64,000 nucleotides of DNA from Antedon mediterranea (Eukaryota > Echinodermata > Crinoidea > Comatulida > Antedonidae). This document shows, piece by piece, positions 12,201 through 44,900 of this stretch. The notes under the pieces were generated by a model. That model was not told the DNA's origin. It ran no database searches and saw only the letters and a list, made by a program, of their open reading frames with translations. The DNA is taken from positions 4,218,001-4,282,000 of the forward strand of contig NC_092679.1 of the NCBI RefSeq assembly GCF_964355755.1. Reading direction: 5' to 3'. A program made the position numbers and the translations under genes. The first letter of the stretch is position 1, and each line of letters starts with the position of its first letter.

Positions 12201-15200
12201 CAATTTAAGCATAAAACATGATAGGTTAAATGAAAATCACACATAGTTTACACCATTTTTCAACCAACAGACCACATAAAATTTTAAAATTTATGCATTA
12301 TATTTGTCTCAAAATAGAAAAACACCAAAGTAATGTAGATAAAATACTGTTTGAACTATAATTTTCTGTGACAAAAAACAACTTGTAATTGTTCAGCCTT
12401 TGATTGTTTTTGGCTTTTATACAAGTCTACCTATGCGACTTAAGTCGGGTTTCACTTGCATGTATATTATGTATGTAAAATATGGAACACAGTAAAACCC
12501 TTCCTTTGGGACATCCCTATTAAGGAAAATTTCCCATGAAAGACGGGCAATACCACTACAGCCAAGAGGACACTTAATCCTGGAGGTTCCTTTAAGAGAG
12601 GTTCTGTTAAAATATATAAACATTTTTTAAACAATGCATGTAGATTTTTTATGATAATTTATTCACCATTTATACATTATGATTTATTATAATATTTTTT
12701 TCTAAAAAAAGAAAATCTATAAAACTAATAATGAAAGTATAAACCTTATATTGTAGAACTGGCACATTTTCAATCCAGGCTGCTCTAGAGATGTCTTAGT
12801 TGAATCTATACATTATACAGTAATACAATACTTAATCTTAACTTTGACGTTACCACTATTTTTTTTTTTCTCTCTAGATGTGTTTGGCCACCCGCACAGA
12901 GATTGTCCAAGAACACTCAGAGAACATTGATGAATATAGAGTTTTCCATCAAAATCATTGAATTATTTAGAATTATAAAAAAAATGTATTTACATTAATT
13001 GAACTGATAAAGTTACAAGCTATTTAATGAACCAATATTGTATTCCAACTTATTTTGCTGTGTTATAAGATTTGGGCGTGACTTCATCTAAATACTGTAG
13101 TGAGGAGAAAACATGGCCAACAAGATAATATCGTCTCCCTGTGTGCTGATCATGCCGCTTGCAGAGCAGTTTATGAATTTAGCTCTTTTTTTTCTTAGCA
13201 CCTAGAGTTTTCACAGTATTAGGAGCTTTAAAAATCTTGTGATATTATTATTATAAATATAAAATAAAGTCTATTGAAAATGCAGTAAAAACTGAGTTAT
13301 GTTTTATTTATTAGTCCTGTATGATTTCACTTTTAATATAAATTATTCTCATACTCTGAAAAAAACCCCAAAAACACGAGAAAAATTCATTTTGCACATG
13401 CTTACAAACAAATCAATGTTGCGGAAGCTTCTGTAACCTGTCAAATTTGGTAGTGGTGTTACTTGCTGTTGTGCACTATTAAAAAAGTCATTATTATTTA
13501 TCATATTTCAATGTTGAAACACACAACACTGAAAACAAACATTGTTATGTTCTCTTAGGCAAGGCTCCTGCTCCTACAACGATTGTACCGAAGAGTGAAA
13601 CGGTTGATATAAGTGACGACGAGGAAGCGCCTACAAATGAAATACGCAACCGTGGTCGGAGACGAATCATTACAAACATACAATTTCAAAACGCATACGG
13701 GACTGATTCGAGATTCAATAGACAGGATGTGTTCAGATTTTGCAGAAATGCAAATGGACAGCACATTGTAATGGGGACTGATGGCGTGTACAATCCAACG
13801 GAACGGTGCACCAGATGTTGTAAGCAAACTTATTTCATTTCAACATCTAATTCCACACTTGTTTGTATGTCAAACTATTAAATTATTATTGAGATGCAAA
13901 TAAATAGACCAGGCAGTATTGTACTTGGCTGGTCTTTTACATTTAACCATCATGTACAATTTAAATTCTTTTTTAAAAATGTTAAGACAATCTTTTGTTT
14001 AAATTTTCAGTTCAGCTGGGCCATGCTGTAGTCAAATGTCCAAGAACTCTTCGAAGGTGGAGATAAGATTTGATGATTTAACGGCTTGTGTTTATTTCCA
14101 GATATTCAACCAAAATGGATTGTCATGCCATAATAATAATAATAATAATAATGATGCATGACCCTTCTAAAAAACAATTGAACATTTTGTGTGCATCTAG
14201 ATTCTACCGTGCTAAGATGCTTGTCATATTTGTAATGAGATAGTTGATGTACTCTAAAGCTCTGTCTCCACTATCAAACTTTATGTGACAAACAATTGTG
14301 ATGTGCCCATATATGGACATGATGATGTAATATCATTACCATATTTGAGCACATCACACTTTTTTTGGTCAAACTAGTTTGATAGTGTAGACAGAGCTTA
14401 ACAATGGTTAATGATAATTATTGTAAACTTTTGTTATTTATTTTTGTTATACTGTAATATTGGGTAGAAATTTATTAAAAGTAAGTTTTTGAAACTAGCT
14501 ACTATAAATGTATTGACACTATAGAATAAGGTATTGCGCGAATGGAGTGTTTTGATTGGAAAACAAATATTGTAACACATCATAGTTGGATAAAATCCTT
14601 GTACAAAGCCGAAAGATACAGATTGTTATATTGCGTTAGAATAATATTATTAGGTAGAAATTTATAATGAATACAGTTTCAGTTTTAGAAACTACTAAAA
14701 ATATACTGATGCTATGATAACAGCAATTTTGTTTATCATTCGTTATAAAATGCAACAGTTCATTTGAAAATAAATATTATCTACTGGACATCTACAGTAT
14801 TTGCTATGTTGCTTCATTTCATTGTGGTCCTAGATGAAGGATGGACAATTACTGCCCATTAAATAGATGAAGTAAAATGGAAATCTTGTAGTAGTGGGTA
14901 GGTAGGAAGAAGAATAACCGGACTTGCTTATTAACTAGGTCGAATTGTGTGTAGGTGGTGTGGATAAAAATACAAGAACTTTCTTCTTCCCTAAGTGCTC
15001 TTTCGTGACGAGCTGCTATCAAAAAGCGCACATTTGCCTGTCTGACTGGGATGGACCAGAACAACTACTGTACTCTTCTAAACATCCATTGAGTTCTGTT
15101 AAGCGCACACGAACTAACTAAGCACACTGGACCTCCAATCTGAGAAGATTTTATTTACCCCCATGAGAACTATGATCGAGGAGAGCCTTGAATTTTTGCC

Positions 15201-16417: not shown

Positions 16418-16684
16418 CCAATTCAATCAAAGACCATCAAGTCACATGGAACGATCAAGGAGTGGTGTGGTGGTAAGGCTGAAATTCCGGACTATAAATG
16501 CTTGTTTCACGAAAGAGAAATAGTTTGAGATTATTCCTTAAATTTATAGTTTTTAATAACAATTAATCAAGTCAGACAGCATTTTAATTATCACAGAAAA
16601 AAATGTGTTCTAATTTGCTTTATTAATAATTAATATGATATTTGTACCATACAATTTATAAAACCTTGCTATAAATGTATATAG

Positions 16685-16751
16685 ATAATACTATACTTTC
16701 CAGTTTTAACTTCCAGTCTGGTTTTAGTTAAAACCTTCATCAATGTATTAT
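16685..16751 (-). promoter_or_regulatory. SECIS element candidate in selenoprotein L 3' UTR
   Basis: Minus strand, 70 nt downstream of the stop. Helix I: ATAATAC (16745-16751) pairs with GTATTAT (16685-16691). The core is ATGA (16737-16740) opposite GGAA (16698-16701), giving the GA/AG quartet. Helix II is GGTTTTAACT against AGTTAAAACT, with one G-T-type mismatch. The apical internal loop carries AAAA on its 5' side, about 11 nt from the quartet, and CCA/TGG may form a short helix III (type II form). A minus-strand AATAAA follows at 16619-16624. The arrangement matches eukaryotic SECIS rules, but no folding program was run. Confidence 0.75.
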
Positions 16752-16820: not shown

Positions 16821-19468
16821 TTAACATGTTTTTGGTTTCTTAGCTGGAGGCTGTCCATCACTTCTTTGTTCACATTCCTGAAAAAAAAAAATCAAATTAT
16901 ATTAGAATGTATTATAGATAGTATAGTAACACCTATATATATAACATCTCCAGTGCGTCATAAACAGATAGATAAACCAGTACATCGGGGTAACTCTTTA
17001 CTCTTCCGAAAGATGTACTGTACCACTAGTTTTAAGTCCTTTGGAAAAGAATTGTTCTACCACCAGAACTATGGTCAAGGAGAGCCTTGAATCAGTGCTG
17101 ATTGTACAGCTATGGTTTGCGACCACCTGTCGAATTTATCACCGCCTCTCGACTTGAAAAAAGCCTCTCCATGGAAACTTTATTACATCTAACAACCATA
17201 CAACAGAATACAATGCTAAAAATGTGCAGTTCAAATTGTGATTAATTACTAGATATTGCACATGTTTATGCAAATTACTTACCTTCATAACAGCAATTAG
17301 GCGATCTACTGTTGGTCTGTCACTAGGGACTTTACTGCGGTACATTAGACGTAACACGCCTTCTTCATCAACAACAAAATCACCGCCCATCTGAAAGTGT
17401 TGACAGAGCTTTAATACCTGATACTGTACCATGAATAATTTAAAATGCAAATTAGACCAAATTAGCATATTCACCTGATGTGGATCATCTTCAACATTTT
17501 CGAATGATTTTGGTAGACTCCTACCCAGTGCTTTTTGTTGCCCATAATACTTCATTGAATCCATATTCCATACCTTTTTAATTGATCTTCCCAGACCAAA
17601 TGCCTTATATAGCTGTCGATAAATTCAAAATAATATATTGAAATCTAAATATACCTCATGATGTAATGGCATGTCAAGTCACAGTAGAACCCTGTCTTTT
17701 TGGTAACCCTACTAAGGGGACACTTTCCTCTGAATCAAACAAGAGGCATATGTTTTAACACTGCAGCCAACTCTATTTGAAGGAACCCTAGTCATTGTCT
17801 CATTAGGATTAGAAAGATCAGGAAGTCCCCTGCAAATGGCACAAACCTGTCTATCTTCATCTACAAATAATGGAAATTCACACTTGGTCGACTCGAGCCA
17901 CATTCTTGCCCCGACGATGGATCCAAATGAAACGACGACAATATTTCCACGAAGATCTCCTTGTTCATTTCGTCGGTCCTGAAGCTCTTGGACATGGTCG
18001 CGTCACGGAAGTCAGGCCAAATGCCGCAGCAAAACCAGAGTAACTGGGTTCCCTTTGTCTTTAACGTACTTGCTGAGGTTTATTACACTATTTTGAAACA
18101 CAAAACAATTTTTCATTAAGTGCCTACAAATAACTGCTATACTTGTTTATAATAGAGCTATTTATTATGTATACGTCTACTCAAGGCAATCTAACAACAG
18201 GACACTGAGCTCGCCAAGATAGGAACTAGTAACAGTCCTTTGATCTTATGTCTGGCTGTGACAAATACCAACAGTACTGTACTATGTACACATTCTCCTG
18301 GCGCCCTGTGTCTGTTAAGTGGCGTGGAACTGATCGTGTCGCAGCCACAGATAGATCCTTTGATTTCCGGTGCTCAGCACTCTGTTGTTAGAATGCCTTG
18401 TTGGTCTACTTTACCTTGAGTCTTTGGAATTGGTTAGTGATATGTCTGGAGGGACCTCGTCTCCCTGGCTAACTTCACTTGTAGATGAATCATTATTCAG
18501 TTGTTTGTCAACATTTGTTAAGAAACTCTCCCAATCTTCCTGTCATGAACAAATGTACTAATTTAAAGATCTGTCTACACTATCTGTGATGTGCCCATAT
18601 ATGGACATGATGTCATATCACTGCCATATTTGTGCATATCACCACCATATTTGGGCACATCACACTTTTTTTTTCAAACTTTGTTTGATAGTGTAGACAG
18701 AGCTTAATAATAGGCCGAACAAATAAGTTATGCGGGGAAGAACAACCCTTTGTGTTGATCTGGCCTCCGTGGATCAAAGTTTGAACTTAAATTTTTAATT
18801 GATTGTGATAACATACCTGCACCTCCTCTACGCCTTCAAATGCTTCTTGGACCTCGATGTGCTGGAAGTATTCCTTACAGAGATCTTCAATAGACGACCA
18901 ACTAGTTAATTGCAAGCTGGACGAATTGAATATAAAAGTGAGTACAGTTCAGGCTGAAGGTTTATTTACATTATACAGTATTTGCAGTAATTATTAATTG
19001 GTCTATGAATTTATCCAGGTAAATAACATGCCATTTGTAAGTTAAGGTATTGTAAGGTATTGTAGGATTTTGGGGTGATGTGCATTTTTAATTTTATGGA
19101 AAATTTACCTTGTCAACGTGTTATAAATTGTTCCTATGCTTCTTCCAAGTTTTGATACCTTTGTGCACATGAAATCTTCAACACATACTGTTTAAAAAAA
19201 TAGAAAAAAAATAATACTGTTGTATTTCGCAATTTACAGTAGATTTAGATAATATTCAAAAAATTCCACTGACAATCATTCATGGCAGCAGATAACTGTT
19301 TATAGTGTTTACAGTATAAAGATAAACCTAACCTTTAAAATCGTTCTGTGCTTCATCAAGTATTTCTCTGATATTAAATGCATGTTGTTTCAGTGTTTCT
19401 GATAGTTGGTGAAACCGAGCACCGGTCTGAGTTAGGGAATCCCCAACCGAGGAGGGAATTCCCGTCAT
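16821..19468 (-). CDS. SELENOL: Selenoprotein L-like, thioredoxin-fold protein with Sec-x-x-Sec
   Basis: Exons in transcript order: 19468-19333, 19187-19109, 18901-18817, 18539-18415, 18087-17847, 17612-17475, 17390-17283, 16877-16821; 322 residues counting two TGA codons as selenocysteine. The TGAs are at 18014-18012 and 18005-18003, in LLRHLAULPURDHVQEL (U167 and U170). Frame, splice phase and protein similarity continue on both sides: IVVVSFGS, GARMWLESTKCEFPLFVDED, LYKAFGLGRS, then MGGDFVVDEEGV and DRPTVDRLI, typical of AhpC/TSA-like peroxiredoxin-like proteins. Selenoprotein L, described from aquatic animals and some marine bacteria, has exactly this UxxU redox motif, which forms a diselenide. 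A SECIS candidate lies in the 3' UTR. Residues 1-140 are less recognisable and rich in Asp/Glu/Ser in the exon 4 part. Its substrate is unknown. A decayed gene is the alternative, but no other lesion is present. Confidence 0.85.
17685..17800. repeat. GGGGACAC-type dispersed repeat in selenoprotein gene intron
   Basis: AGTAGAACCCTG ... CTAAGGGGACACTTTCC ... CACTGCAGCCAACT resembles copies at 12488, 22077 and 34005. It is intronic between exons 5 and 6. Confidence 0.55.
18565..18705. mobile_element. Hairpin MITE, AAGCTCTGTCTACAC family, in selenoprotein gene intron 3
   Basis: Left end AAAGATCTGTCTACACTATC and right end GATAGTGTAGACAGAGCTT, with internal CCATATTTG repeats. Confidence 0.8.
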
Positions 19469-19605: not shown

Positions 19606-22600
19606 ATGGCGAAATCTAAAAAAGATCTGAATGTTTTGGATCTTGATTTATATTCGATTTTAGACGTCCCTCCAGAAGCTACTGAATCAGAAGTATATTT
19701 GACTATATATATTTAATGTTCATTAGTGGCATGATACAAGATTATGCTATAGTGTAGGCTAGACACTTTAGCCTAAATAGGCTAGCTAGTCCTAGGCTAG
19801 GATTAGGCCAAGTTGAGCCGCCGACAAGTTGAGCCGCCGCCAGAAAAACGTTATTTTCTATGAAACGCCAAATGCTAACTTTCGCCGGTGCTCGTTTTTT
19901 ATTTAATAGAAGTTCTATTTTCATTAGGGATAACGAAGTTTATATATTACACTTTTTAGTATAGTATTAAATATTACACTTTAAAGAACTATAATATGAA
20001 AATCTGACTTGTACTTGTAGATTCCAAAATAAAAGACCTAAAACATCACCGAAAATGATCGTTTTTAGCCAAAAATGACGTAAACATGTTGCCCTCTCAG
20101 GTTAAATAATTACATAAAATCACCATTTTTTAGGAAAATATTTTGTGTATTAAAATTGTAAAATTCAATAAAATATGATATTAAAAGATAGTAAATAAAA
20201 AATAATTATTACTTAACCTCATTCGAAGAATATCAATACTCTATTATATTAGTTATTTGGGTAGGCCTACACGTCCACGCGAGACAAATATAGAGTGCAC
20301 GGCATTTTTACCTTGAAAGATTACTTTCCTTTGCTGTGTTGTTTATGGTGGTTCAAACCAACATTGTAGTATGTAATTATATATCATTTATTTTCATGAC
20401 ACAATACACATAAAGACCATGAACTTGTACTAGGACACCGCTCTAATCACTACGCGAAATGTCGTAAAAGACGCGCTGGGCGTTTCATAGAAATTACCTG
20501 CGGCTCAACTTGTCGGCGGCCCAACCGGTCATATGCCCTAGGCTAAACAGTTTTATTTCTAGCTAGCTAGAGAAGTCGGCAGGGAATTTCGATCGTTCAG
20601 AGGGTAGAATGAGCCATCCGAATGAGCCTAGTCTTGGCTAGTAGTAAGACGTGATTTCCAGGTGATTTTTATCATACATCTGGACTAGATTTACCATATA
20701 TACAGTATTAACTATTGTTATATTATATATTTGTACCAAACACATTTTTTCCCTTATCAGATAAAGAAAGCTTACAGAAAGAAAGCTTTGAAATGCCATC
20801 CTGACAAGAACCCAGATGATGCCAAGGCAGGTACTGTAATTAATGTCCTCCAGCCCAGTTTTATTTTAACAGTTTTGTTTGCACCCTCATTTGGCATACA
20901 CCCTTTTTTAAGCCCCTGTTTTTGTATACAAACTATATTCTTAAATAAAGGCATACTAATATTTTTTAAATAAACATAATTCTGTATTACAAATTCAATT
21001 TTATCGGACATAAAGTTTTAATCGTTTTTTAATATTTTTGAAGATTAACATTTAACAACTTTTATTTTTTTTACAGCTGCAGAATGGGAAAAACTTGCCA
21101 AAACTTTAGAAGTATTGATAGATGCAACAGCAAGGGTAAAGTAGTGTCTTTCCTTTACAATAATACTTATTCAAAGACAAAGGCTAAATTTGCTGCTTTT
21201 TTTTATAAAAATAATAAATTAATATAGTTGTGAGATACGAACAATTGTGGACTCCCAAAAATTATAATGTATGATTTCAGTTTTTAATATTTCGGTACTA
21301 ATGGTATTATATGATATTTCTAAGTTAGAATCAAGCAACGTATACCAACTGATATCTTTTACAGGCTGCATATGACAGATTATTAAAAGCAAGAAAAGCT
21401 GTTGAATTAAGAAACAGAACTTTAGATAATAAGAGAAGAAAAATAAAAGAAGGTAACTTTATCTGTTAGTGTTAGTTATTAGTTGGTTTATATACCCATT
21501 TATGGGTGTCTTCACACTAGCTCAATATATACAAACTAATATATACATGTCTATGCATGCTATGCAATCATTTTTATTATACAGATCTTGAAGCTAGAGA
21601 AGCTGCTGTTTATGAAGATGTGAGTGAAAGCCCAGCAGATGCTGCTGCCAGACTTCAACAAGAGGTATGACACGGTACTTTTAGAAAGTAAAGAATAGGC
21701 AGTACTGAATATTATAGTTTAATATTATAATCCATGACATTACTCAATCTTATCGCGGTTTTTGTTGCAGATAATACGTTTACGAGAAGAGGGATCGGAA
21801 CAGCTGAGACGAGAACAAGATGAAATGCAAAAACAACTTGAAAAAGATAATGATATTAATGGTAAGGGATTTTTATTTATCAGTACGACACAAACGATTG
21901 TGCCCTCTATTAAATATAGTCTTCTAAGAACGTTATTATTGCTTTATCTTTGCAGATGAAGAAACTCCAAAATTAAAGGTGAAATGGAAGGCGAAAAAGA
22001 GCGATGAAACTAATGGTGGATATAATTATGGGATGTTGCATAAATTATTTAACAAGGTAATATTTTTATAAATACTTTAAAACACCCCTACTTAAAGGGG
22101 ACACTTTTCCATAAAATAAACATGGACCAATATATGTTTTTTTAACACTACAGCCAACTATTCAGAGGACACTTTGTTTGCCCATATAAGGTCCTTAATA
22201 AATAGCCCTACTGGCAAACATAAAAAAAGAAACAGAACTTACGCGCAATGTCGAATGATGACTAGCATTTAATGACTGTACATTTAATTGCCTTAATTTT
22301 AGTATGACTTTAATTTTCATGTAAAAAAAAATTAATTAAAATTACACTTTCTAATATTCTTTTAGTATGGTGAAGTAACAACGTTGTTAATCTCAACTAA
22401 AAAGAAAGGTAGTGCTATTGTGGAATACAGCTCAGCAAACAGTGCAGTAAGTATTTATTGATTATTCAAATATTTGAAATAATTTGAAAAAACTAAATTT
22501 AATTGATGATATTTATAAAAAACACTGCAATACTAGAAACTGAGAAACTATTTGCCCTAGAGTGGGTTGGGTGGTGACCAAGCTTAGGAAAATCCCACCT

Positions 22601-23400
22601 TTTTTGGAGTATTAACAATCTGTTTCATATGATAGAGTTTATTGAATTAATTATTTTAAAGAAAGAATAACTTAAAAGTGCAAATTATAACTCTTAATTT
22701 TTCTAATTTTCTTACCAATATCTTTTTTTAGTTGAATGCTGTACAACTTGAACAAGGACTTGTATCCAATCCTCTCCAGATCATGTGGCTTGCTGGCAAA
22801 CCATCATCTACAGTTCAACCATCAGTGTGTATCATTTTTTAATAAACTAATCCTCAGCAATTTCATGCATTTTGAATTAATAGAAAGGACTTCAAGGGCC
22901 TACCATTTGTAAAATAATGTGCTGACATTATGTTCTATTCTTTAAATTGTAATTGACCCCGATCAGGGGTCGGTCACTCAAGTATCATTTGATCATCAAT
23001 ATCATAATAACAATTGTAAAATATACTGATCATTCGTAACTCATTAAGTGAGAGTCCAATTTTATTTCCCAAAAAATTGTTATGGTCACATAAATGTTCC
23101 TCTAATGACCTTTTAAACTTTTTTATTCATTAGACCATAGACTGTGAACTTGCAGTTCTTACTAAGCTAAAAGAAGCGCAGCAACGAAAGAGAGAAGCAG
23201 AGACTGTTGCGAATTTTGAAGAAGAAACGTTTAAAAAAAGACATGATATGACAAACTCTACATCAGATGCTAATACTAGCAGTTTTCAGAAATCAAATTT
23301 AAACACTGCAATGGACTTTGAGAATTTAGCTGCAAGAAACATGCGTCAAGCCGAAGAAAGAAGAAAAATTATTGAAGAAATGGAAAGAAATGACCGATAG
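19606..23400 (+). CDS. DNAJC17: DNAJC17-like J-domain and RRM protein
   Basis: Ten exons: 19606-19692, 20761-20830, 21077-21135, 21365-21452, 21585-21664, 21771-21861, 21956-22056, 22366-22446, 22732-22824, 23134-23400; 338 aa (human about 304). The N-terminal J domain has [17 protein letters not shown], then [20 protein letters not shown] with the HPD triad at residues 42-44, needed to stimulate Hsp70. A charged helical linker (residues about 75-165) leads to an RRM-like domain ([29 protein letters not shown]) and a basic/acidic C-terminal helix ending MERNDR. DNAJC17 is linked to splicing in other eukaryotes. It is head-to-head with the selenoprotein gene; AATAAA lies at 23411. Confidence 0.93.
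19812..20525. mobile_element. 714-bp inverted-repeat element in DNAJC17 intron 1
   Basis: The left end repeats GTTGAGCCGCCG twice and continues to TTTCTATGAAACGCC; the right end has the inverse (GGGCGTTTCATAGAAATTAC ... CGGCTCAACTTGTCGGCGG). The inverted termini are about 45-50 bp. I see no transposase. Confidence 0.75.
22077..22215. repeat. GGGGACAC-type dispersed repeat in DNAJC17 intron 7
   Basis: TTAAAGGGGACACTTTTCC, then ACACTACAGCCAACT and CTTAATAAATAGCCC; same family as 12488, 17685 and 34005. Confidence 0.5.
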
Positions 23401-23932: not shown

Positions 23933-26900
23933 ATGTCTGACAGTGATCATGACTTTCCATATAGAGTGGAATATGCAAAAAGTGGTAGAGCTAGCTGTAA
24001 ATTGTGTAAAGATACGATAGGAAAAGAAAGCCTTCGACTGGCTAGGATGATACAGGTAAGAAGTTTTATGAGGCGGCTAGCTAACTAGGCTAGCCTAGGT
24101 CCAAATGCTGCATGTGCTACCTGACACTGACAGTTTGGCCTAGGCCTACTGCTGATTGATTCGTGGGTGGAGGATTCCTCCATTGTTTGTGGAACTGATC
24201 TTACAATTTGCCAAATTTTACAACATTTTTATTAATAATATTGTAATTTAGTTATTCTAATAAAAAAGTGCATGCTAAATAAATAAAGCCTAAATAAAAG
24301 GCTTTTAAACAATTTAAATAACAGTAAAACCTAAAAGTTAAATTATTTTGCACTAGCGAGGTTTTTTATGTAATGTACAGTAACTAGGCCTACATTAAAT
24401 GATTTATTGCTCATAATTTTGTATTTTATGTTTTGTTTATATTTCATGTGACTACTACATAAATAAAATAGTGTTTTATAGTTTGTGAAAAAAAGAAAAT
24501 ATTGACTTATTTATAACAAGTTATATAATTGAAATTATTAATAGTGTTTTCATTAATACAGTCTCCTGTTTTTGATGGAAGAATACCCAACTGGTATCAT
24601 TTCGGGTGCTTTTGGAAGAAGTCAACAGTTCAGAACTTTACTGATATTGGTATGCTAGTGTATTCTTTACTGATATTGGTATGCTAGTGTATTCTTTACT
24701 GATATTGGTATGCTAGTGTATTCTTTACTGATATTGGTATGCTAGTGTATTCTTTACTGATATTGGTATGCTAGTGTATTCTTTACTGATATTGGTATGC
24801 TAGTGTATTCTTTACTGATATTGGTATGCTAGTGTATTCTTTACTGATATTGGTATGCTAGTGTATTCTTTACTGATATTGGTATGCTAGTGTATTCTTT
24901 ACTGATATTGGTATGCTAGTGTATTCTTTACTGATATTGGTATGCTAGTGTATTCTTTACTGATATTGGTATGCTAGTGTATTCTTTACTGATATTGGTA
25001 TGCTAGTGTATTCTTTACTGATATTGGTATGCTAGTGTATTCTTTACTGATATTGGTATGCTAGTGTATTCTTTACTGATATTGGTATGCTAGTGTATTC
25101 TTTACTGATATTGGTATGCTAGTGTATTCTTTACTGATATTGGTATGCTAGTGTATTCTTTACTGATATTGGTATGCTAGTGTATTCTTTACTGATATTG
25201 GTATGCTAGTGTATTCTTTACTGATATTGGTATGCTAGTGTATTCTTTACTGATATTGGTATGCTAGTGTATTCTTTACTGATATTGGTATGCTAGTGTA
25301 TTCTTTACTGATATTGGTATGCTAGTGTATTCTTTACTGATATTGGTATGCTAGTGTATTCTTTACTGATATTGGTATGCTAGTGTATTCTTTACTGATA
25401 TTGGTATGCTAGTGTATTCTTTACTGATATTGGTATGCTAGTGTATTCTTTACTGATATTGGTATGCTAGTGTATTCTTTACTGATATTGGTATGCTAGT
25501 GTATTCTTTACTGATATTGGTATGCTAGTGTATTCTTTACTGATATTGGTATGCTAGTGTATTCTTTACTGATATTGGTATGCTAGTGTATTCTTTACTG
25601 ATATTGGTATGCTAGTGTATTCTTTACTGATATTGGTATGCTAGTGTATTCTTTACTGATATTGGTATGCTAGTGTATTCTTTACTGATATTGGTATGCT
25701 AGTGTATTCTTTACTGATATTGGTATGCTAGTGTATTCTTTACTGATATTGGTATGCTAGTGTATTCTTTACTGATATTGGTATGCTAGTGTATTCTTTA
25801 CTGATATTGGTATGCTAGTGTATTCTTTACTGATATTGGTATGCTAGTGTATTCTTTACTGATATTGGTATGCTAGTGTATTCTTTACTGATATTGGTAT
25901 GCTAGTGTATTCTTTACTGATATTGGTATGCTAGTGTATTCTTTACTGATATTGGTATGCTAGTGTATTTCAATCTAATAATAATATGACAAAGTAACAT
26001 TCATTTAGTTTAGTACAAAGGTAAAATAATGAAATTTAAGTTTCAAGGTAAAATGTAACCGATAATTTTTATCTAATTTTAACAATTTTTAGCCTCTTAA
26101 CTTTTTGTGTGTGTTTTTGTAAATTGTATTTTATATTTTTGTATTTTGCCAGTTTTCAAATCACATTTCTGTTTTTTAAATGGACAATAAAGTATATATG
26201 ACTATGACTATGACTACATTTTTATGATGGTATGTGGAAACTTTAGAAACGGCAAATTAATGTTTTATTAATTTGCCTAAATACCGAAATGTGCTGATAA
26301 AACTGTAACATCAAACTATATAGATGTTCTATTGAACTGAAGGCTAAAATATGTAGCTTATTTGATCAACTGTTATAGTACAAATATAGAGTATCACGGT
26401 GCTGACGTCACGACGGTAAGTGGTGCTGCATGGTTTTTAGCGCAACCAAAAATGCGTTCAGCCTGCCTGAGTGACTCCAAGATCACCAATGGTTTGCAGT
26501 AGGCTTATTGAAGTAGTCATTTTAAAACTTAATAATTTTCAATAAAAACAAACTAAAATTTCATAAAATCATTAAATATTTGTTTTTAATAATCTACTTA
26601 TTCTTCAACTACAGTTTAAGTTTAAAAAAATCAAGCTATGGTACATAATTTGATAGAAATACAGATTTTTACTGTTTATCAACATAGTAGCGCTAAACGC
26701 ATTTTTTGGTTGGCTAGCAATCATGCAGCGCCCTCTATCGTTGTGACGTCCCACCATGATACTCTATAGGCTTATAAAGTTATTCTCATTTCCTGTATCT
26801 TATTACATACTAACTATCAATTAAATTAATTTGTAATACATATACCACCAGCATTATAAAGTCGGGGAAGAGTGAAATTTCATTATTTCTTGATAAGATA

Positions 26901-29900: not shown

Positions 29901-32900
29901 CGCGCGCTTGGGCGATGCGGCCCTACAACAAAGGCGCCGCTTTGATGGATCGTGTTGCATGCCGCGCTCTTGATATTCTCTTGTCATTTTGTATTTTCTT
30001 TTAATTAAGTAAATAACTATAATAAATGTAGAGTGCCGGCAGTAACTAATTTTTTTGAAAAAATGCCAAAAACTGGGAATAAATGTAGAGTGCCAGCAGT
30101 AACTAACCGGAATAAATGTAGAGTGCCGGCAACTACTAACTGTGAATAAATGTAGAGTGCCTACAGTAAATAACTGGGAATAAATGTATAGTGCCGGCAG
30201 TAATTAAATGAGAATAAATGTAGAGTGCCGGCAGTAACTAACTGTGAATAAATGTAGAGTGCCTGCAGTAACTAACTGGGAATAAATTTAGAGTGCCGGC
30301 AGTAACTAACTGGAAACAACTTGAATAATATACTAATAATAACTAATGTGCATGCAATGAGATGATAAATATAGCATAATTTTATTATTTATTTTCTAAT
30401 TATTTAATTTCGCATTCATCAAGAGATCGGTCGACACAAACACTTCACGCACGTGTACCGTGTAGATTTTTGGCTATTTGCCAGTACTGTATTTGTGCCA
30501 AGCCACTATGTACGTTGTGTGCCCGATCGGCCATAAACACCACCCTAACAAGATTCGTTGGGCGTTATTGGTTATCGACGTTTTATTTGTTTGCGAGACA
30601 AAGGGGTGAACTGAAAGGCTATTGTTTTGTTATGTTAGATAATAGCACAGATTTGGCTTTTTTAAGGTTAAGGACAAGGTATTTTGTCTAGGCCTAGGCT
30701 AGGTCTTAGATCTAATAATTTGTGCCGGTCGGGAGCCTGTTTGTGCCGGTCGGAAATTCTGAGTGCCGGACGGGGCCGTCCGGCGCTGACCGGCGTGGTG
30801 AGAACCCTGCTTATATGTAATGTCAGGGCCCTCATAAGAGACAAGACTAGTGAGGGCCCCAGTTATTGTTATATAACTGAATATATGAATAATCTCAATC
30901 ACATACCTCTTTTTTTTTAAACATTTACTACTGTATAACTATATGACATTTACGATCTTATTAGTAACACAAATATTTTATTGAACTATAGATATTCTTG
31001 GCTTTATTTTTTAGGCTCAAAGTCAGTTCTTGTGGACAATTCGAGACCAATTGTATCGACATGTTCCTAATGAAAATCTGAAAGAATTGCTGACGGAAAA
31101 TGGCCAAGAAATTCCTAAAGGAGAATCAAAGGTATGATGCAGTTTTTAGGCTACTTGACTACAGACTGCAGTCTCATGCCTTTCAATGCCTTAAAGCCCC
31201 ATTTAGGCCTTATGTTCCATGTCTAAAAATGTTTACTAAATAGACTATATATATATACTATATTTTATATATATATATATATATATTTATATAAATCCAA
31301 AGGCAAATTACTGAAAAAAAATGACAATGCTGTGGGTATCAGTGGCTGGATCTCAATGGAGATACAAAAATAAAAAGCGAAAAGCTAAATCAAAACGATA
31401 AAGTAAACAGCCAGAAAAGTTAGCAGAGCTTTCGGGCAACACTAGCCCTTCATCAGTGCAAGTGAGGAAATTGGATAACGTCAGAGTATAAAGCTGGCAA
31501 GTGCTGCCTGGGTGGACAGGAATAAAAGAAATATAACAAAGGGAGCCAGGGTGGAGTCTGAATAAGAGTGGAAAACAAAGAAGGTAGCTTGGTAGAGATA
31601 TAAACAATTTTGGAATGAGACTAAAAAACAGCTTAAATGGTGGTTAATATTGAAACTTAAATTTTGGTAGTCAATGGAATAATTTTACCGATCTGGGAGT
31701 ATGTTCCTAATGTTAAGTCCAAAAGGTTTTGTGGTTTTAAGTAGTAATTCCCAGTGGTTTTCTTTGTCTTTGCGAGTTTTGTCGCTCCATTTGACATCGT
31801 GGTCTATTGCAATAACTCTGAAATTTGCAATCGAGTGACCAGCTGAATTAAAATGTTCGGCTACAGGTTGATCAAGCTTTAATGTTTTGATAGCTGATCT
31901 ATGTTGTGTCATTCTCATACGGAGAGTGTTTTTTGTTTCTCCGACGTACTGTTTGCCACAAATATTACAGTATATGAGATAAATGACGTTTTTGGTTAGA
32001 CAATATATATATATTATATAAACAAATCAGGCACTATATATATATATATATATATATACTATATTTTATATATAAACAAATCAGGCACAGAACATTAATT
32101 CTAAACCGCCCGGTGATATACTGAAATTTAATTAATTAATTTGAAACGATAAAGATAAGGAAATCTGTGAGAATGAGAAAAAGTCGCCCCAACCGAGACT
32201 CGAACTCGGACCGCCTGCTTGATATGCAGATGTCCTAACCATTAGACCACTGGGGCTTTCATGGTATTGTTCGAACTCGATTGGATAGCGACTCTTTAAC
32301 ATTCTCGGCGTGGTACGGCGGAACAGCACTAGTCCTCAGTTGTACGCACGCGCACCAGAGATCAAATTGATACGCCCTCATCTTACAGTATTTTTATTCA
32401 CGAGGCGGGATCTCAGAAGAGATACTTTTATATATATAAACAAATCAGGCACAGAACATTAATTCTAAACCGCCCGGTGATATACTGAAATTTAATTAAT
32501 TAATTTGAAACGATAAAGATAAGGAAATCTGTGAGAATGAGAAAAAGTCGCCCCAACCGAGACTCGAACTCGGACCGCCTGCTTGATATGCAGATGTCCT
32601 AACCATTAGACCACTGGGGCTTTCATGGTATTGTTCGAACTCGATTGGATAGCGACTCTTTAACATTCTCGGCGTGGTACGGCGGAACAGCACTAGTCCT
32701 CAGTTGTACGCACGCGCACCAGAGATCAAATTGATACGCCCTCATCTTACAGTATTTTTATTCACGAGGCGGGATCTCAGAAGAGATACTTTTATATATA
32801 TAAACAAATCAGGCACAGAACATTAATTCTAAACCGCCCGGTGATATACTGAAATTTAATTAATTAATTTGAAACGATAAAGATGAGGAAATCTGTGAGA

Positions 32901-35900
32901 ATGAGAAAAAGTCGCCCCAACCGAGACTCGAACTCGGACCGCCTGCTTGATATGCAGATGTCCTAACCATTAGACCACTGGGGCTTTCATGGTATTGTTC
33001 GAACTCGGTTCCAGTGGGTATGGCTATCATTGTACAGGTAACATATTTTATATATATATATATATATTTTATATATACTATATTTTCTCCTCATAAACTT
33101 CTACATTGAAACTAACTAAGTTCATAAATTATTGCAGTAAAAAGTGTAGTTTCTGCAGTTGCTTCAGTAGAAGAATGTTGTATTTTTGTTCATATTTAAC
33201 ATCTTTTTCCAATAGCTTCTGGACTACGTGTGTGATGGCATGGCTTTCGGTGCATTGGAGGGCTGTTCAGAATGTAAGGTTGGTCAAGTGGTGGTCGGTT
33301 CCAGTGGGTATGGCTATCATTGTACAGGTAACATATCATCATGGACCAAATGCCAATTCAAAAGCCAAACAGCTAAGAGAGGAACTTGGAACATTCCAGA
33401 AGACCTCAAAGACTTTGAATATTTGTAAGTACTGCAGTAACTATAGTGGAGATGTATTTTAGTGGTTAACATTCTTGCCTTCCAATCCTAAGGTCCAGGG
33501 TTCAATCCTGACCTGGTGCCATTGTTGTAACTCAGACACCTCTTTGAACTCAACTCCCTAAGCCTCAAATGATTAGTTTGTAAGCACGAGATTACTGGTT
33601 TGTGGGTGCTTTTAGTTTTAGAATTTAAAAAACAGAATATTTTCTAAAACAATGTGGAGCTGTAGCTTGGTGGTTAATATGCTTGCCTTCCAATCCCAAG
33701 GTCCATAGTTCAATCCTGACGTAGTGCCATTGTTGTAACTCTCACGGTTTCAACGTCTCACTCCCTAAGCCTCAAATGATTAGTTTTTTAAGCATGATAA
33801 ATTATAAAACAGTTTTTCCATGCTGTAATTGGAGAGTTTCTTGCTCTTTGATGCTTTTTGAAATTTAAACAGGGCCATACATGGCTGCAGTCACGTGCTC
33901 ACATAAATGTTTACTGACCAACCGACTGACCAACCAACAGACATAGTGAGCTGTAGAGTCGTGTTGCATGCGACTAAAAAAGGAATATTTTTTTTAACAA
34001 AATACATCTAATCAAGGAACACACGTTAAGGGGACACTTTTCCTGTGAATGGATGATGGGAAATTATATAACACTGTGGTCAACTCGTTTTCAACTCAAA
34101 GGCATCCTCTTAATAGGACTTTTACTGTCATCATACATAGGATCACAGAGCTTGTATGCAAAACTAAGAAATAATATGTACAAAAATATGTTTTGTTTGT
34201 AGGAATACATTCAAGTTTAAGCCGTTTAACAAAGGTGTTAGAGTATTCCCTGTTGAACCAGTCCGCTCAGCAAAGCCAAGTGCCAGTATCACAAGGTAAT
34301 ATTAACTTGGTTTCAACATTTTCCATCACAAAAATTATTATTATAATAATAATATATAGCGCCTAATGTTGTGAAACCTCTAAGCTCTGAAAATTATTAC
34401 CCAAGTCATTTTGGGTATGGAAACATACTCCCATAATGCAGCTAGTAATCAGCGCAAAGTTGTGTCTTGATCTAACCGGGTACCCATTTATACACCTGGG
34501 TGGAGAGAGGCAAATGTAAGTAAAGTGTCTTGCCTAATGATACAAGCAATGCTGCGAGAGTTGGATTCAAACCTTGATCTCATGATCAGTAGTCGAATGT
34601 CCAACACAATGCACCACATGCCCTTACATGTAAGAATTTATTACAATAATGTTCTATTTTTTTGTTCTCTAATCTGAGCTTTTTAAAAATATTGAATTAT
34701 ACAGTATGTGCATTAAAAAATGTTTTGTTAAACCTTCCAAAACAAATTAATTTAAAATAAATAAATTAATTTATTTTAAATAGTATAAAAATGGAAGCGG
34801 AGCTGCCATTACAGAATGCAAAGCTAGTTCTTGGTAGTAAGCTAAGCAAACCTGTTAAAGAATTAAAGAAGGCCATTGCTTTGTTGGGAGGGACAGTCAC
34901 CACTAAAGTAGACGCAACTGTAGCATGTGTAGTTGCTACCAAAAGTAAGTAAAAAAATGCGAGAAATAAATATTGTTGTAGCCAATCGAAACAGTTAACC
35001 TTGATAGTAGGATATATGTTTCTTGATTTCACAGAAATACGATATTGTAGAAATACCATAGAGTGGAATACGATATATAAGTAACTTGATTTTAAATATT
35101 TCAGAGGAGGCTGAATCAAAAACCAAGAAAATAAAAGATGCAGAAGCTCACAATGTCCATGTTGTGTCGGAAGAGTTTTTAGAAGATGTGAAAAGTGGGG
35201 GCGCTGCACTCATGATAACTAAACATAGTATTTGCAACTGGGGATCAGATGTAAGTAACGGAACGTGATACGATATTAGCCAATCAGATAGTAATGTGTA
35301 CAATAATAACATTAACTTTAAGGTTAAATAAATTCAAAACATACATTTGCTGCACATGTCAAAAAGAAATAAACTCTATCAATCAACTTTGATGTTAAAA
35401 TGATCTTTGATCAGTAAGGTCTTTTAATGCAGTTTAATGTATAATGTAATGTATACCCCATGAAAAGGCAAACTACCCTAAAGCAGTCAGAGTTATTTTA
35501 TTGTTTGTGCAGACAGAATGCAAAAATTAGCTGATGAAAGGGCCTAGTGTTGCCCAAAAGCTCTGCCGGTTTTACTTAATAGCTTTAATTTAGCGTTTTC
35601 ATATTTTATTTCATTGAGATCCAGTCACAGAATTGTATTTTTTTTAGCAATTTGCCTTTGTATATAAATTGATTTAAAAAATCATACTGTCAAATTATTG
35701 AAAGTAGTATACAAACAATTCAAACTCCTTCCTATCATCCCTCACAATATTAAATTGATTGATGCAAATAATTATGGTATTTACTTAAAATATCTAATTA
35801 TTTTGTTTACTTAGCCTCATAATCGACTTTCTAAAGATGAAGTAGATGGAGCTAGTACGTCAAAGAATAATTTAAAATCAGGTATGTATTTTTGTGAATT

Positions 35901-38900: not shown

Positions 38901-41900
38901 AAAAAAAGCAAAATGGAAGGAATTAAGCTCTGTCTACATTATCAAACTTTATGTGACAAAAACAAATGTGATGTGCCCATATATGGACATGATGATGTCA
39001 TATCACTACCACATTTGGGGATATCACTACCATATTTAGGCATAATATGACACCTTTTTTATCAAACTACTGTAGTTTGATAGTGTAGATAGAGCTTTAG
39101 ACATGAACATTAATAATTTTACTAGGCCTTAACAGCAGTAATGGTGATGGACTCCTGGATACCTATAAAATAATTTAAGAGATAGTTAATGATCAGTTTT
39201 TGAGAATCGATGTACATGTGCTCTTTGCAACCACTCATCAATCGTGTTAAGATTATCTTAATGATCAGATGCGGCAGTACCGTCATTTATCTTAGTCACT
39301 GGTATAATTCGACAAAAAAATTGATGGATTGTGTAAAATAACAATATAGTTAAAGTTATTTTAGTGTTTGTATAGTAGGCCATGTTTGCTGTAAATCATG
39401 CTCTAATGCATAGTCTTTTTAAAACTTTGTGCCAAACTGTGTGATGGATGGGAATGACACATTCTGCTGGAGAGTGATGACTCTTTCTGCCATTAACCAG
39501 AAGATCCCACACCACAGTATTATTATGGCAATCACGGCTATACTTTGAAAAGGAACTACACAACAGAACATAGATAAGGGGAGGGGAATTCTTCCTCCAA
39601 ACCCCTACAGTGCCTTAAAGACACATCTAAAGCTGAATGGTTCAGTTTGTATTTAGGGTTGATATGGTAGTAATGATATCTTCATGTCCATACATGGGCA
39701 CATGACATTTTTCAAACTAGTTTTATAGTGTAGTCAGAGCTTTACATAGCTTAGTTATTGTTACACAAGAATTTGATAAACACTATTTTTCTTGTAATCA
39801 ATCCTTTATATTAAATATATACAAAATGCATTGAAAGTAACTTAAAACGATACCTTATTTACTTTATTTTTACTTCAGTGGTCAAAGATTGTAGACCTAT
39901 TTGCTAGGCGCAAATGGTCAATGTATTTGCCCAAAGTTAATTGTTTTAATTTTTGCTAGCGTGAAATCAATTCTGTACACACATCAATAACCACTAGGTA
40001 ATATCGGGAGCAGCTCTAGAATATCACAGGAGAACGTATTGCAAATACATTTAAAATTCTATAATTCAAACAACAATTTAAATTACTGTATAATGTGCAA
40101 TCAGGTATATGTAGTATGCATGGTTTTATTTTGTATCGACCTCATGGCCAGATGGGTTCGAGTATTACGAACCCACATTTCCATGAAGTGCGCTGTTGAA
40201 GTTGTAAACAGGTCTAAATTGGTTCTGATCATAAACATTTTTTCCCCTATTGTAAAAAAAAATACACCCTTTAAAAATTACTGCGTTTTGTGTTTATGTG
40301 CTTTATCAATTAACAGACTCCATAATATTCTTGTTTGTGTTAACAGCTGTTTAGATACCATAGCATTCAATTTATAATTACTTAGCTGAAATTAACGAAC
40401 AATTAGGGTTTTAATTACTGGATTTGCCAGTCTTGACGACTCGTTTTTTTGTGCGTTTGCTGCTAAATTACTGTTGGAAATTCCCCATATTTTCTTATCC
40501 TCCTATTTATCCTTCGTTACCTTATTCTTTTTTTATCCGTACTCTTTATCTATACCCCACTCTTTACTGTATACCCCATTCTAATATAATCCCTTCCCTA
40601 TCTCCACTTTCACTTCAAATAAAATTGCATGAAATATTGAGTTTTAATTTTGTTTTTCATTTGATAAATTGGTTTCATTTATAAAATCTAAATTTGATCA
40701 TTGCTGATAATTTTATGTGAACAATTAGGATTTCATACTCTTTTTTTTATCAAAGCAAAGCAAACAATAACATAATATTCAAATTGGTACAGTAGTTCTA
40801 AATTCAATTCCCTACATTAATAGTATTTAAAACATTTTTCCTTCTATCAAATAATATAAACTACACTATACATTCTAACAAACATTTGATTCGATCATTT
40901 TACAGTACACACATTCTTTAACATTGTGACTTGTTTTTTTAAATACTGTATGCATTATTTCTCATATTCAGTAGACATACATATTTTTTCATTCATACAA
41001 TTAATTTATATAAACATTGGCTCTTTCTACACTATTAAATTTTATGTGATGTGATGTGCCCAAATATGGTAGTGATATGCACAAATATGGTAGTGATATG
41101 CACAAATATGGTAGTGATATGACATTATGTACATATATTGGCACATCACATTTTTTTGTCACATAAAGTTTGATAGTGTAAACAGAGCCTATGTAATGAA
41201 TGTAACGTACAGTCAGAGCCATGTTGATTCTTTACGAAACTGAGTGTTCTTAAAACTGCTGTTTAGACGCAACAGTAAACTAGTTTTTTTAAGCGCATAC
41301 GCAGTCCGTGCTTTCCTGCAGCAGAAACATTTGTAATAACAACATACGATTCTTCTGCAATGTTTCCGAAACGATTTATTTATCATCGAGTACATGACAG
41401 GGTTTAAAAGAGAATTTAAATATGGCAAAAAATACTGTATAAGGTAAAGGATCAACGCCCGACTTGTAGAATCCGATATTCGTTCAACCGCGGTGAAACT
41501 CCAATGTATTTCGAGTACTGCTCGTGGTAACCAACAGATAATGTACACAATAATAACGAGAAAAAGTCGCTTAGCAACTTTTGTCCTTGTATCGTTTATA
41601 AGTCTTTCGCAGCCGAGTTGTCTTCTTGAATGTTTGTTTCTCGTTGATAGCAAATAAAATATTTGTAAATACGCAGCTACAATTATGACAAGCGGGATCC
41701 ACATTGCAACTAATGAATGTAGCATTGCGGTTATGAAGAACAGCGGAAATTCATTCGTTTTCATAAGTGTGCACCGTGGGCCTACAAAGATCTCTAATGA
41801 TGGAGAGGCCACAAGAACCGACATTGCCCATATACCGATAATCATTATTTTTGCTTTTTTCGCATTAATTTTTGTCTCCAGCGGATAGCGAATTGCAAAG

Positions 41901-44900
41901 TAACGATCAATAGATATTCCAACTAGAATCCATGACGAGCAGAGTAAAGTTTGGTTCCAAATAAAAAGTGAGACTTGGCATTCCGTGTCTTTGAGAACAC
42001 GGTAAATACTAGTAATTTCCAAGTAAAAGTGTATTGGTATTACTGCGATACAAACAATCAAGTCGGATAACGCCAAACTGCACAGGAAGTAATTCGCGGT
42101 TGACTGCTTTCGATGCCGATTCTTATAATAAACTACCAATACAAGTAAATTACCCAGAATTCCAATTACCATGATGATAAATAAAAGTGATAATTCAATA
42201 TATTGATGGAGTATGCTAGGTCGAAGAAATTGAGAAGATATGGTACTGGGTGACTGTACCGTTGGTGACGGCCATTTTGTGTCCATTTTGTCGGTAATTG
42301 TCCAGCTTTGGTAATTTGTAGTATAGTTTCGGTATGCTGTGTAATCCTGTCCTGTAGTGGTCATTATTTCTAATTTGTTTTGCATTCATCAATTGGTAAA
42401 ATGGTTTTTTGGCTTCAAGAATAGAATTTCTTTTCATTCACATTGTGTTGTTCTTCTGTATCTAAAAAAAAAAATTGAAAATCATTCATCAGTTACTTCT
42501 GACATTATCTCTGTACAAATATGAGAGTATAGTGTGGGGATACTGTAGTTAGAACATGTTATGCGACCTTAGGACTACTTTTCTTGCTTGTTGTGTGGTA
42601 ATTTAATTTGAACCTAACCATGAGTTTATATACAAATACATTAGGCCTACAATTCTATAGGTAATTAATTTTAAGGTTCACTGAATTTAAATTTAAATCT
42701 TAAAATTGGCATGACCAACATTACCCACATGTGCTTTAATAGTCAGATTGCTAAAATCTGTTAATCTATTTAAGTAAAAAAAAAATGGAATTTTACCTGT
42801 TTAATGAAATATTTATGTTATATTTAATAACTTTGACATTGTTGATATATTTTTGTAATAATTTATAAAATTAAAATACACACTAAATTCCTTGTTTTCA
42901 TACAAAGAAAGGAACTTAGATATATCTACAGTATGGTTTATCATTTCTTGGTTTTATATGAGCACATCACATTTTTTTTTTCACATAAAGTTTGATAGTG
43001 TAGACAGAGCTTAATATCACCGTCACAACCCTCACGTCTTTCCCCGTTTTTTTTTTCAAATACTGGACAATACTTTGTTGTCTTAATCACGATTTTCCTG
43101 TAGTAGGCCTACTAAGTAATAGGTTACAGCATAAATGTTGTTACCAAGGAAACAGACATGATAGTACCAAACATCAGAAATGATCATTATGCTACTGTAG
43201 ACAGGGATGCTATGTTTCCAATTGTTTATTATTAATAGATAACAACAGATCCAAATTAGGACTTCTTCTATCTGTACACGTTGAAATATTAGTTCGGTAT
43301 TGTAATACAAATTTACGGTACTTAAGAATTTACCAACACTTGTTGAAAGTTTAGCTTTATTTATGACCATGCGTGTTGAAATTGTAACTTTATTTATGCT
43401 TCTAAGTGTTGAAATGTAATATATTTAGCTGCTGTTTGGTACTACCTCATCCAATACCAGTGATTGATATTCGGTTAAAGACTGTTTATTGTATAGTTCA
43501 AGGAAAAGTTTGTAATGGTGTCATAGTTTTTGTGAAATTGTGATCAAAAGTCAATTTTTTGTATCTTTAAACAACCTCCTTGTGAATAAAACCAATTTAA
43601 AGACAGTCAAGTTTTCCATTGAAGAAATTTGTTTTCCCCATCATCCCTTCATTCAAAATTTAACTTTAATTTAACAGAAAGTAAACCATATTGTTCTCTT
43701 TGTGAAATTTCATTTAACTTCCATTGAGACTGTTATTTGTTTTTTGGCACTTTTCATTTTGAAGAATGTTTTACTTTTAAATTCCCATGCCCTTTGGTTG
43801 TATGACATAAAAAAACTACGGTACTAGGTAAAGATATACTGTACGTCCTTTAATTAGTTACGAGATTTTCTACAATTATCTTTGTGGGTGGTGTTTGAAT
43901 TCCGATGTACTCAACTGTGTAAACAGATTAAGGTCGTGTTCGTACGGTGGTTAAAATAAGCGCTTAATTTCACCCATGCCTCGGGTTATAAGTTGAGCGT
44001 TGTTCGTACTTGAAATATTTAACCGCTTATAAATGCTTAATCGACGAATCACAAACCGGAAATTACGTTTTAAGGTCAGTTGTCTTTACAACCTACTACG
44101 ACCCCATTTTCGCACGCTAGTTTCGTGTTGTATATTTTTTACTCGCGATCTTTCTTTACAATAACAATTACTTGCTACCTTTTACACTGCTTATCCTTGC
44201 GACAAACCTTATGCCTCTTAACGCCGATAATCCTGCCGAAATATGCCTTCTCCTGACGACTATTATTTTACTCCTTGACGAAGAATTTGAGCCCAATGTT
44301 ACACGAAACACCACCGACCAGCTAGGCCTACTAAGCGGTCTACACCAACAAGGACAGCACCAGCTGACGATCGCTCTCGAAGCGTGTATGGAAGAGCTTC
44401 GTAGGAGAAATGACGGGCCTAGGCAGCGAACGTTTGTCAAAATTTGACACATTGCCTCTATCGGAGATTTATTATCCTCGAAGGCCGAGTATAATTGGAT
44501 TATCGCTGAAATAACCTGCAAATTTGGTGAACATTTGCCTCAAAATTTTTGTAGCCTGAGGCAAAAGTTAATTGGGTCATGCGAACGGAAATCGGGAATA
44601 AGCTGGTATTTTCAACCCCTACGAACAGGCCCCAAGACTCAATTCGTAACATAATTACCAAATGTCAGTAAATCCCACAAAATCTATGTTGCAGCCCAAT
44701 TCTCATGTTTCTATAGTAATCCACAGTTGTACTTTGTCTTAGGATTGCTATAAAATAAAATTGAGCTACAATTTTAGTAATGCTTGTCTTCCATAGGCTA
44801 TGCTGCTACAATTTATTCAGATAGGGGAGCTCCAGCAATGCAAGAGGGAGAAGGTTAAAGTTCAGCTCTTCATTGTACTTTCCCTTCTTCCCCTCTATCC

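Follow-up and report, generated by a model that had tools for sequence, protein, structure and literature searches.

The locus considered here raises the question of how a crinoid gene that is open along its whole length except for two in-frame TGA codons, two codons apart, is read. A preliminary description of this DNA proposed that the gene encodes selenoprotein L (SelL) and that both TGAs stand for selenocysteine (Sec). We examined the proposal for the window, that is, the whole 64-kb stretch of Antedon mediterranea DNA that was analyzed, and for the genome around it. We put a probability of about 96% on the locus being a SelL gene, the only copy found, with a single SECIS element in its 3' untranslated region (3' UTR), both UGAs decoded as selenocysteine, and a peroxiredoxin (Prx)-like redox domain. 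The figure is this high because of the combination of the gene and the SECIS element.

The minus strand of positions 24000 to 14000 was read, and an eight-exon gene model was rebuilt using GT/AG borders and phases. The gene model extends from 19468 to 16821 (−) and comprises 969 nt, equal to 322 codons plus TAA. All seven introns are GT-AG, and the phases are compatible throughout, with splice sites predicted from sequence and homology. Coding exon 1 (19333 to 19468, minus strand, as for all of the exons) begins with the ATG at 19468 and is delimited by its frame and a GT donor. The next six exons have AG/GT borders: exon 2 at 19109 to 19187 (phase 1 to 2), exon 3 at 18817 to 18901 (phase 2 to 0), exon 4 at 18415 to 18539 (phase 0 to 2), exon 5 at 17847 to 18087 (phase 2 to 0), exon 6 at 17475 to 17612 (phase 0), and exon 7 at 17283 to 17390 (phase 0). 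Exon 8 (16821 to 16877) has an AG acceptor and contains the TAA stop. Exon 6 ends with the EDDPHQ of a conserved EDDPHQMGGDF, and exon 5, which bears the U-L-P-U motif, is 241 nt long and hence not a multiple of three. The only in-frame stops ahead of the TAA are TGA codons at 18012 to 18014 and 18003 to 18005 (−), the putative Sec167 and Sec170, which together form UxxU, two TGAs separated by two codons. The coding frame of exon 5 thus holds two stops, both TGA, and its other two frames hold five and three. The exon reads ...LVLLRHLA-TGA-LP-TGA-RDHVQEL... from 18087 to 17847 (−), and the exon coordinates, motif, and count of 322 codons in the preliminary description are exact; the open frame that it reported, with no stop or frameshift other than the two TGAs, was likewise recovered across the whole model.

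Downstream of the coding region, the 3' UTR contains a match to the SECIS_1 model (RF00031) at 16687 to 16749 (−), with a score of 35.3 bits against a gathering score of 35. The Rfam E value is 0.00017 for a 4.1-kb search and 0.0026 for the whole 64-kb window, in which this is the only SECIS match reaching the gathering threshold. The AUGA core begins 80 nt past the TAA of SelL on the same strand and is accompanied within 16749 to 16687 by a helix, an apical AAAA, a small apical stem, and the partner GA. Such a small apical stem is the mark of the “type II” SECIS form. An AATAAA that could serve as a poly(A) signal is present 3' of the element at 16619 to 16624 (−). The folding energy is unremarkable (z = −1.52; 14 of 200 shuffles folded equally well), and since it is not significant alone, the case for the element is made by conserved pattern and position. 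A genome-wide SECIS search scored 150 of 6422 candidates, and the window's own element was absent from the matches listed, so that no genome count can be derived from it: there were no matches at E ≤ 0.001 (controls, 0 of 14) and three at E ≤ 10, none above the cut-off (controls, 4 of 14). The best of the matches listed had 34 bits and an E value of 0.0078 for the genome, which suggests that a score of 35 bits is rare by chance.

Several weaker RNA matches in the same region were rejected. Those to mir-592, mir-2160, and mir-599 were under their gathering scores and inside a palindromic repeat in intron 3 of SelL, and the Rfam matches to RMST_3 and sR52 were also subthreshold. The short repeat (GCTCTGTCTACACTATCAAAC...), which looks MITE-like by eye, has copies at 18590 to 18700 and 14270 to 14400, one of which thus sits in intron 3, where the microRNA matches were found.

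Family searches were carried out with Cys substituted at both TGA positions. The protein scored 128.4 bits against the NCBIfam model for SelL-related redox proteins (NF040769; cut-off, 120) and matched Pfam AhpC-TSA_2 (56.1 bits) and AhpC-TSA (48.6 bits), both above their cut-offs. A full-length database search yielded one relative, P0001 of Branchiostoma belcheri (38% identity over 93%), and a search with the 179-residue redox piece yielded 19, including P0001. When five of these relatives were scanned with NF040769, P0012 reached 150.1 bits; P0001, P0007, P0003, and P0005 scored 83.8 to 96.2 bits, below the cut-off of 120, and three of these four are without the motif region.

Only 2 of the 19 relatives span the motif. 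P0012, which is probably of bacterial origin, has Cys-Leu-Pro-Cys in the segment LRHLACLPCREH that aligns to LRHLAULPURDH of the SelL protein, and P0007 has Trp-Leu-Pro-Trp. The latter is, on its face, the only homologue with neither Sec nor Cys at the two positions, a kind of homologue that the preliminary description had named as counterevidence, and its paired tryptophans probably represent UGA translated under a code with UGA as Trp. Of the four tryptophans that P0007 has elsewhere, three align to tryptophans of the SelL protein and one is in an insertion. Fifteen of the 19 relatives start downstream of the motif, ~4 to 23 residues after it, as would be expected of gene callers that treat UGA as a stop. 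For 14 of the 15, the start was taken from the alignment (residues 174 to 193 of the window's protein); P0006, whose first letter is misaligned, was placed by eye. The B. belcheri protein aligns on either side of the motif, with the motif itself missing, and P0002, a gene model that contains a repeated piece, lacks the motif as well. None of the 19 is annotated as a UxxU protein, and the named animal relatives, from three Branchiostoma species and Amphibalanus, are annotated without the motif. The expectation that standard annotation would truncate such genes agrees with the 15 of 19 late starts and with the B. belcheri model.

No solved structure matched the SelL protein by sequence at E ≤ 0.001 (best, 0.035), and the fold was approached via predicted models of the two relatives that span the motif. 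The P0012 model (mean pLDDT, 84.6) has a strand at residues 32 to 37 and has C42 and C45 where the helix of residues 43 to 54 begins; its top solved matches in Foldseek are thiol peroxidases and peroxiredoxins. The P0007 model has a mean pLDDT of 68.4, with low confidence outside the redox domain, and its structure matches cover mostly residues 130 to 308. In both of these Prx-like models, the motif lies between strand and helix. CxxC is the thioredoxin motif at the position matching Sec167-Leu-Pro-Sec170. The relatives' predicted models resemble AhpC/TSA peroxiredoxins and ResA/TlpA-type thiol-disulfide oxidoreductases in overall fold, and the resemblance to the AhpC/TSA peroxiredoxins extends to the Pfam matches of the SelL protein itself, but the crinoid protein differs from both groups by its putative pair of Sec residues spaced two residues apart.

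Bacterial and archaeal contigs were scanned with a pattern from the EDDPHQMGGD region that did not include the motif. Because the pattern lies outside the motif, the scan did not demand a TGA, although it may favor sequences of the post-motif subset, since the alignment behind the pattern contained many bacterial proteins whose starts lie past the motif. Relatives are encoded by 32 (L011 to L042) of the 67 stretches that matched; 31 of these are titled as actinobacterial MAGs (Acidimicrobiia, Acidimicrobiales, Actinomycetes, and similar) and one as Gemmataceae. In all 32, the first motif position is TGA and the second is Cys, and 30 have a U-L-P-C core. With this in-frame TGA at the first position throughout, the bacterial loci look like selenoprotein genes too. 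The 42 nt past each of the 32 TGAs, folded singly, gave varied structures. A scan of a viral collection matched the pattern in 27 stretches, none of which encodes a relative. The bacterial UxxC form is not new in kind, since both UxxC and UxxU are given for a Prx-like thiol:disulfide oxidoreductase in a review of prokaryotes (PMC13188914). These SelL-related bacterial proteins (NF040769; L011 to L042 and P0012) have the same domain as crinoid SelL, and 30 of the 32 loci share a [U/C]-L-P-C core with P0012. They differ in having UxxC (the 32 loci) or CxxC (P0012) in place of UxxU and, in P0012, in the absence of the N-terminal ~125 residues of the crinoid protein. The reading of both TGAs as selenocysteine in a SelL gene, put forward in the preliminary description, is thus supported by the SECIS score of 35.3 bits, by the NF040769 score of 128.4 bits, and by the Cys-Cys, Trp-Trp, and TGA-Cys pairs at the same positions in relatives.

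TGA is ordinarily a stop, and the absence of everything up to the motif from the annotation of 15 of the 19 relatives would also fit a gene in which both TGAs are true stops, either a decaying pseudogene or the source of a protein cut short after residue 166. However, no further stop or frameshift interrupts the 322 codons, and the chance of two random codons among the 322 hitting positions 167 and 170, exactly the redox positions, is ~1.9e-5 by simple counting; a pseudogene is unlikely on both grounds. Termination also accords poorly with the conserved sequence that goes on past both TGAs, with a SECIS element 3' of the stop codon, and with the TGA found at the first position in all 32 bacterial loci, and we regard it as very improbable. 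The B. belcheri model, which aligns on both sides and lacks the motif region, could instead indicate that exon 5 is mis-modelled or skipped and that the mature mRNA contains neither TGA. Removal of the 241 nt of exon 5 from our model, however, shifts the frame and leads to a stop at codon 162, so that skipping is unlikely to offer an escape from the TGAs. The redox site would go if the motif were lost, the region is present in P0012 and P0007, and a predictor that avoids stops is the better explanation of the B. belcheri model; we give exon skipping hardly any weight.

A narrower possibility is suggested by the 32 bacterial loci, in which TGA occupies only the first position and Cys the second: the first UGA alone may encode Sec, with the second mainly terminating translation or receiving some other reading. 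In the crinoid gene, however, the second position is a TGA and not a Cys codon, conserved sequence runs beyond it, and the residue in P0007 is identical (Trp) at both positions. Vertebrate SelL, moreover, inserts both Sec residues with one SECIS, as described in passages of PMC3316567. A single selenocysteine in the crinoid protein appears very improbable to us, and a SelL with two remains the preferred reading.

The genome (354 Mb in 18 contigs) was searched with profiles exon by exon. NF040769 gave at least two matches, both of them pieces of the SelL gene (exon 5, with two TGAs inside, and exon 7); 6 of 14 control genomes gave matches, none over the cut-off. Because counts from an exon-wise search are lower bounds, we speak of SelL as the “only copy found” and no more. 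Of 46 matches to the tRNA-Sec model, two exceed the gathering score of 47 (79.2 and 77.8 bits), and ARAGORN calls both of these loci tRNA-Sec with anticodon TCA; all 14 controls gave matches, five over the cut-off. With a selD model, five matches of exon size turned up at two sites on contig C9, all of them below the cut-off; at the same E value, 13 of 14 controls also gave matches, two of them above it. The nearest solved structure to the best of them (L043) is selenide, water dikinase 1 (E value of 2e-21), and the NCBIfam models that match it best are those for selD, at scores under their cut-offs. Judging by these matches, the exon L043 encodes part of a selenophosphate synthetase, SEPHS1 or SEPHS2.

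In the proposed mechanism, the lone SECIS in the 3' UTR would recruit the Sec insertion machinery to the SelL mRNA, and the two UGAs, nine bases apart, would both be decoded as selenocysteine during translation. The C-terminal part of the protein would form a peroxiredoxin-like thioredoxin domain, in which Sec167-Leu-Pro-Sec170 would be placed at the CxxC site of thioredoxins. The two Sec residues probably cycle between diselenol and diselenide in a redox reaction with a presumed substrate; the diselenide bond would follow by analogy with published work on SelL. Residues 1 to ~125 (exons 1 to 4, 19468 to 18415) have no Pfam family above the cut-off. This part is common to P0001 of B. belcheri and P0007 and absent from P0012, and in the P0007 model it is predicted, with low confidence, to be helical. 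We consider it doubtful, though conceivable, that in a so far undocumented crinoid SelL these residues serve as a partner module dedicated, for instance, to a proposed aquatic diselenide-reducing system.

Other features of the window were noted as well. Head-to-head with SelL, at 19606 to 23400 (+), lies a gene that begins much like a J domain and contains an HPDKNPDD motif; we take it to be DNAJC17-like, and the ~137 bp between the two start codons suggest a shared promoter region. Three equally scoring tRNA matches on the minus strand (32185 to 32256, 32549 to 32620, and 32913 to 32984), spaced at 364 bases, are assigned to tRNA-Asp, with ATC as their unusual anticodon. An open frame at 31685 to 32026 (−) has a GIY-YIG endonuclease domain above the Pfam cut-off and is possibly, we assume, part of a retroelement. 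The nearest named relative of a single-exon G protein-coupled receptor at 41213 to 42385 is from the crinoid Anneissia japonica (73%), with other named echinoderms at 39 to 45%, as would fit a crinoid of a genus other than Anneissia.

SelL is described, in the passages concerned, as having two Sec residues two residues apart, inserted via a single SECIS (PMC3316567). It is known from expressed sequence tags in Ciona (PMC2874816) and is listed for sponge, Trichoplax, Nematostella, Capitella, and amphioxus and not for Lottia in the relevant part of PMC3473315. In vertebrates, a passage of PMC12822975 gives SELENOE, SELENOL, and SELENOJ as having <1% well-annotated genes in Ensembl. The crinoid gene resembles SelL (SELENOL) of fish and aquatic invertebrates, as excerpts of these accounts present it, in its two Sec codons two apart and its one SECIS, and the published protein, found in aquatic animals, is a redox protein of the diselenide type (PMC3316567, PMC2397514, PMC2874816, PMC3473315). 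The comparison, by description, shows another animal group, the crinoids, and no difference in kind. The literature searched yielded no account of SelL from a crinoid or any other echinoderm, and the species list of the founding paper (PNAS 2007) may include an echinoderm. Passages on echinoderm selenium and antioxidant biology deal with selenoprotein W in regenerating brittle stars (PMC8718600) and SelP and SelU in sea urchins, and those of a count of antioxidant enzymes in two echinoderms (PMC9925728) do not include SelL.

The locus bears every mark of SelL that sequence alone can show, and crinoid SelL would be a further member of a known, published UxxU diselenide family. A crinoid would thereby join the animals that have a diselenide selenoprotein. 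The locus is also a clean example of annotation loss, with 15 of 19 relatives starting past the motif, and the bacterial loci L011 to L042, all 32 of which have TGA at the first position, could be lost in the same way.
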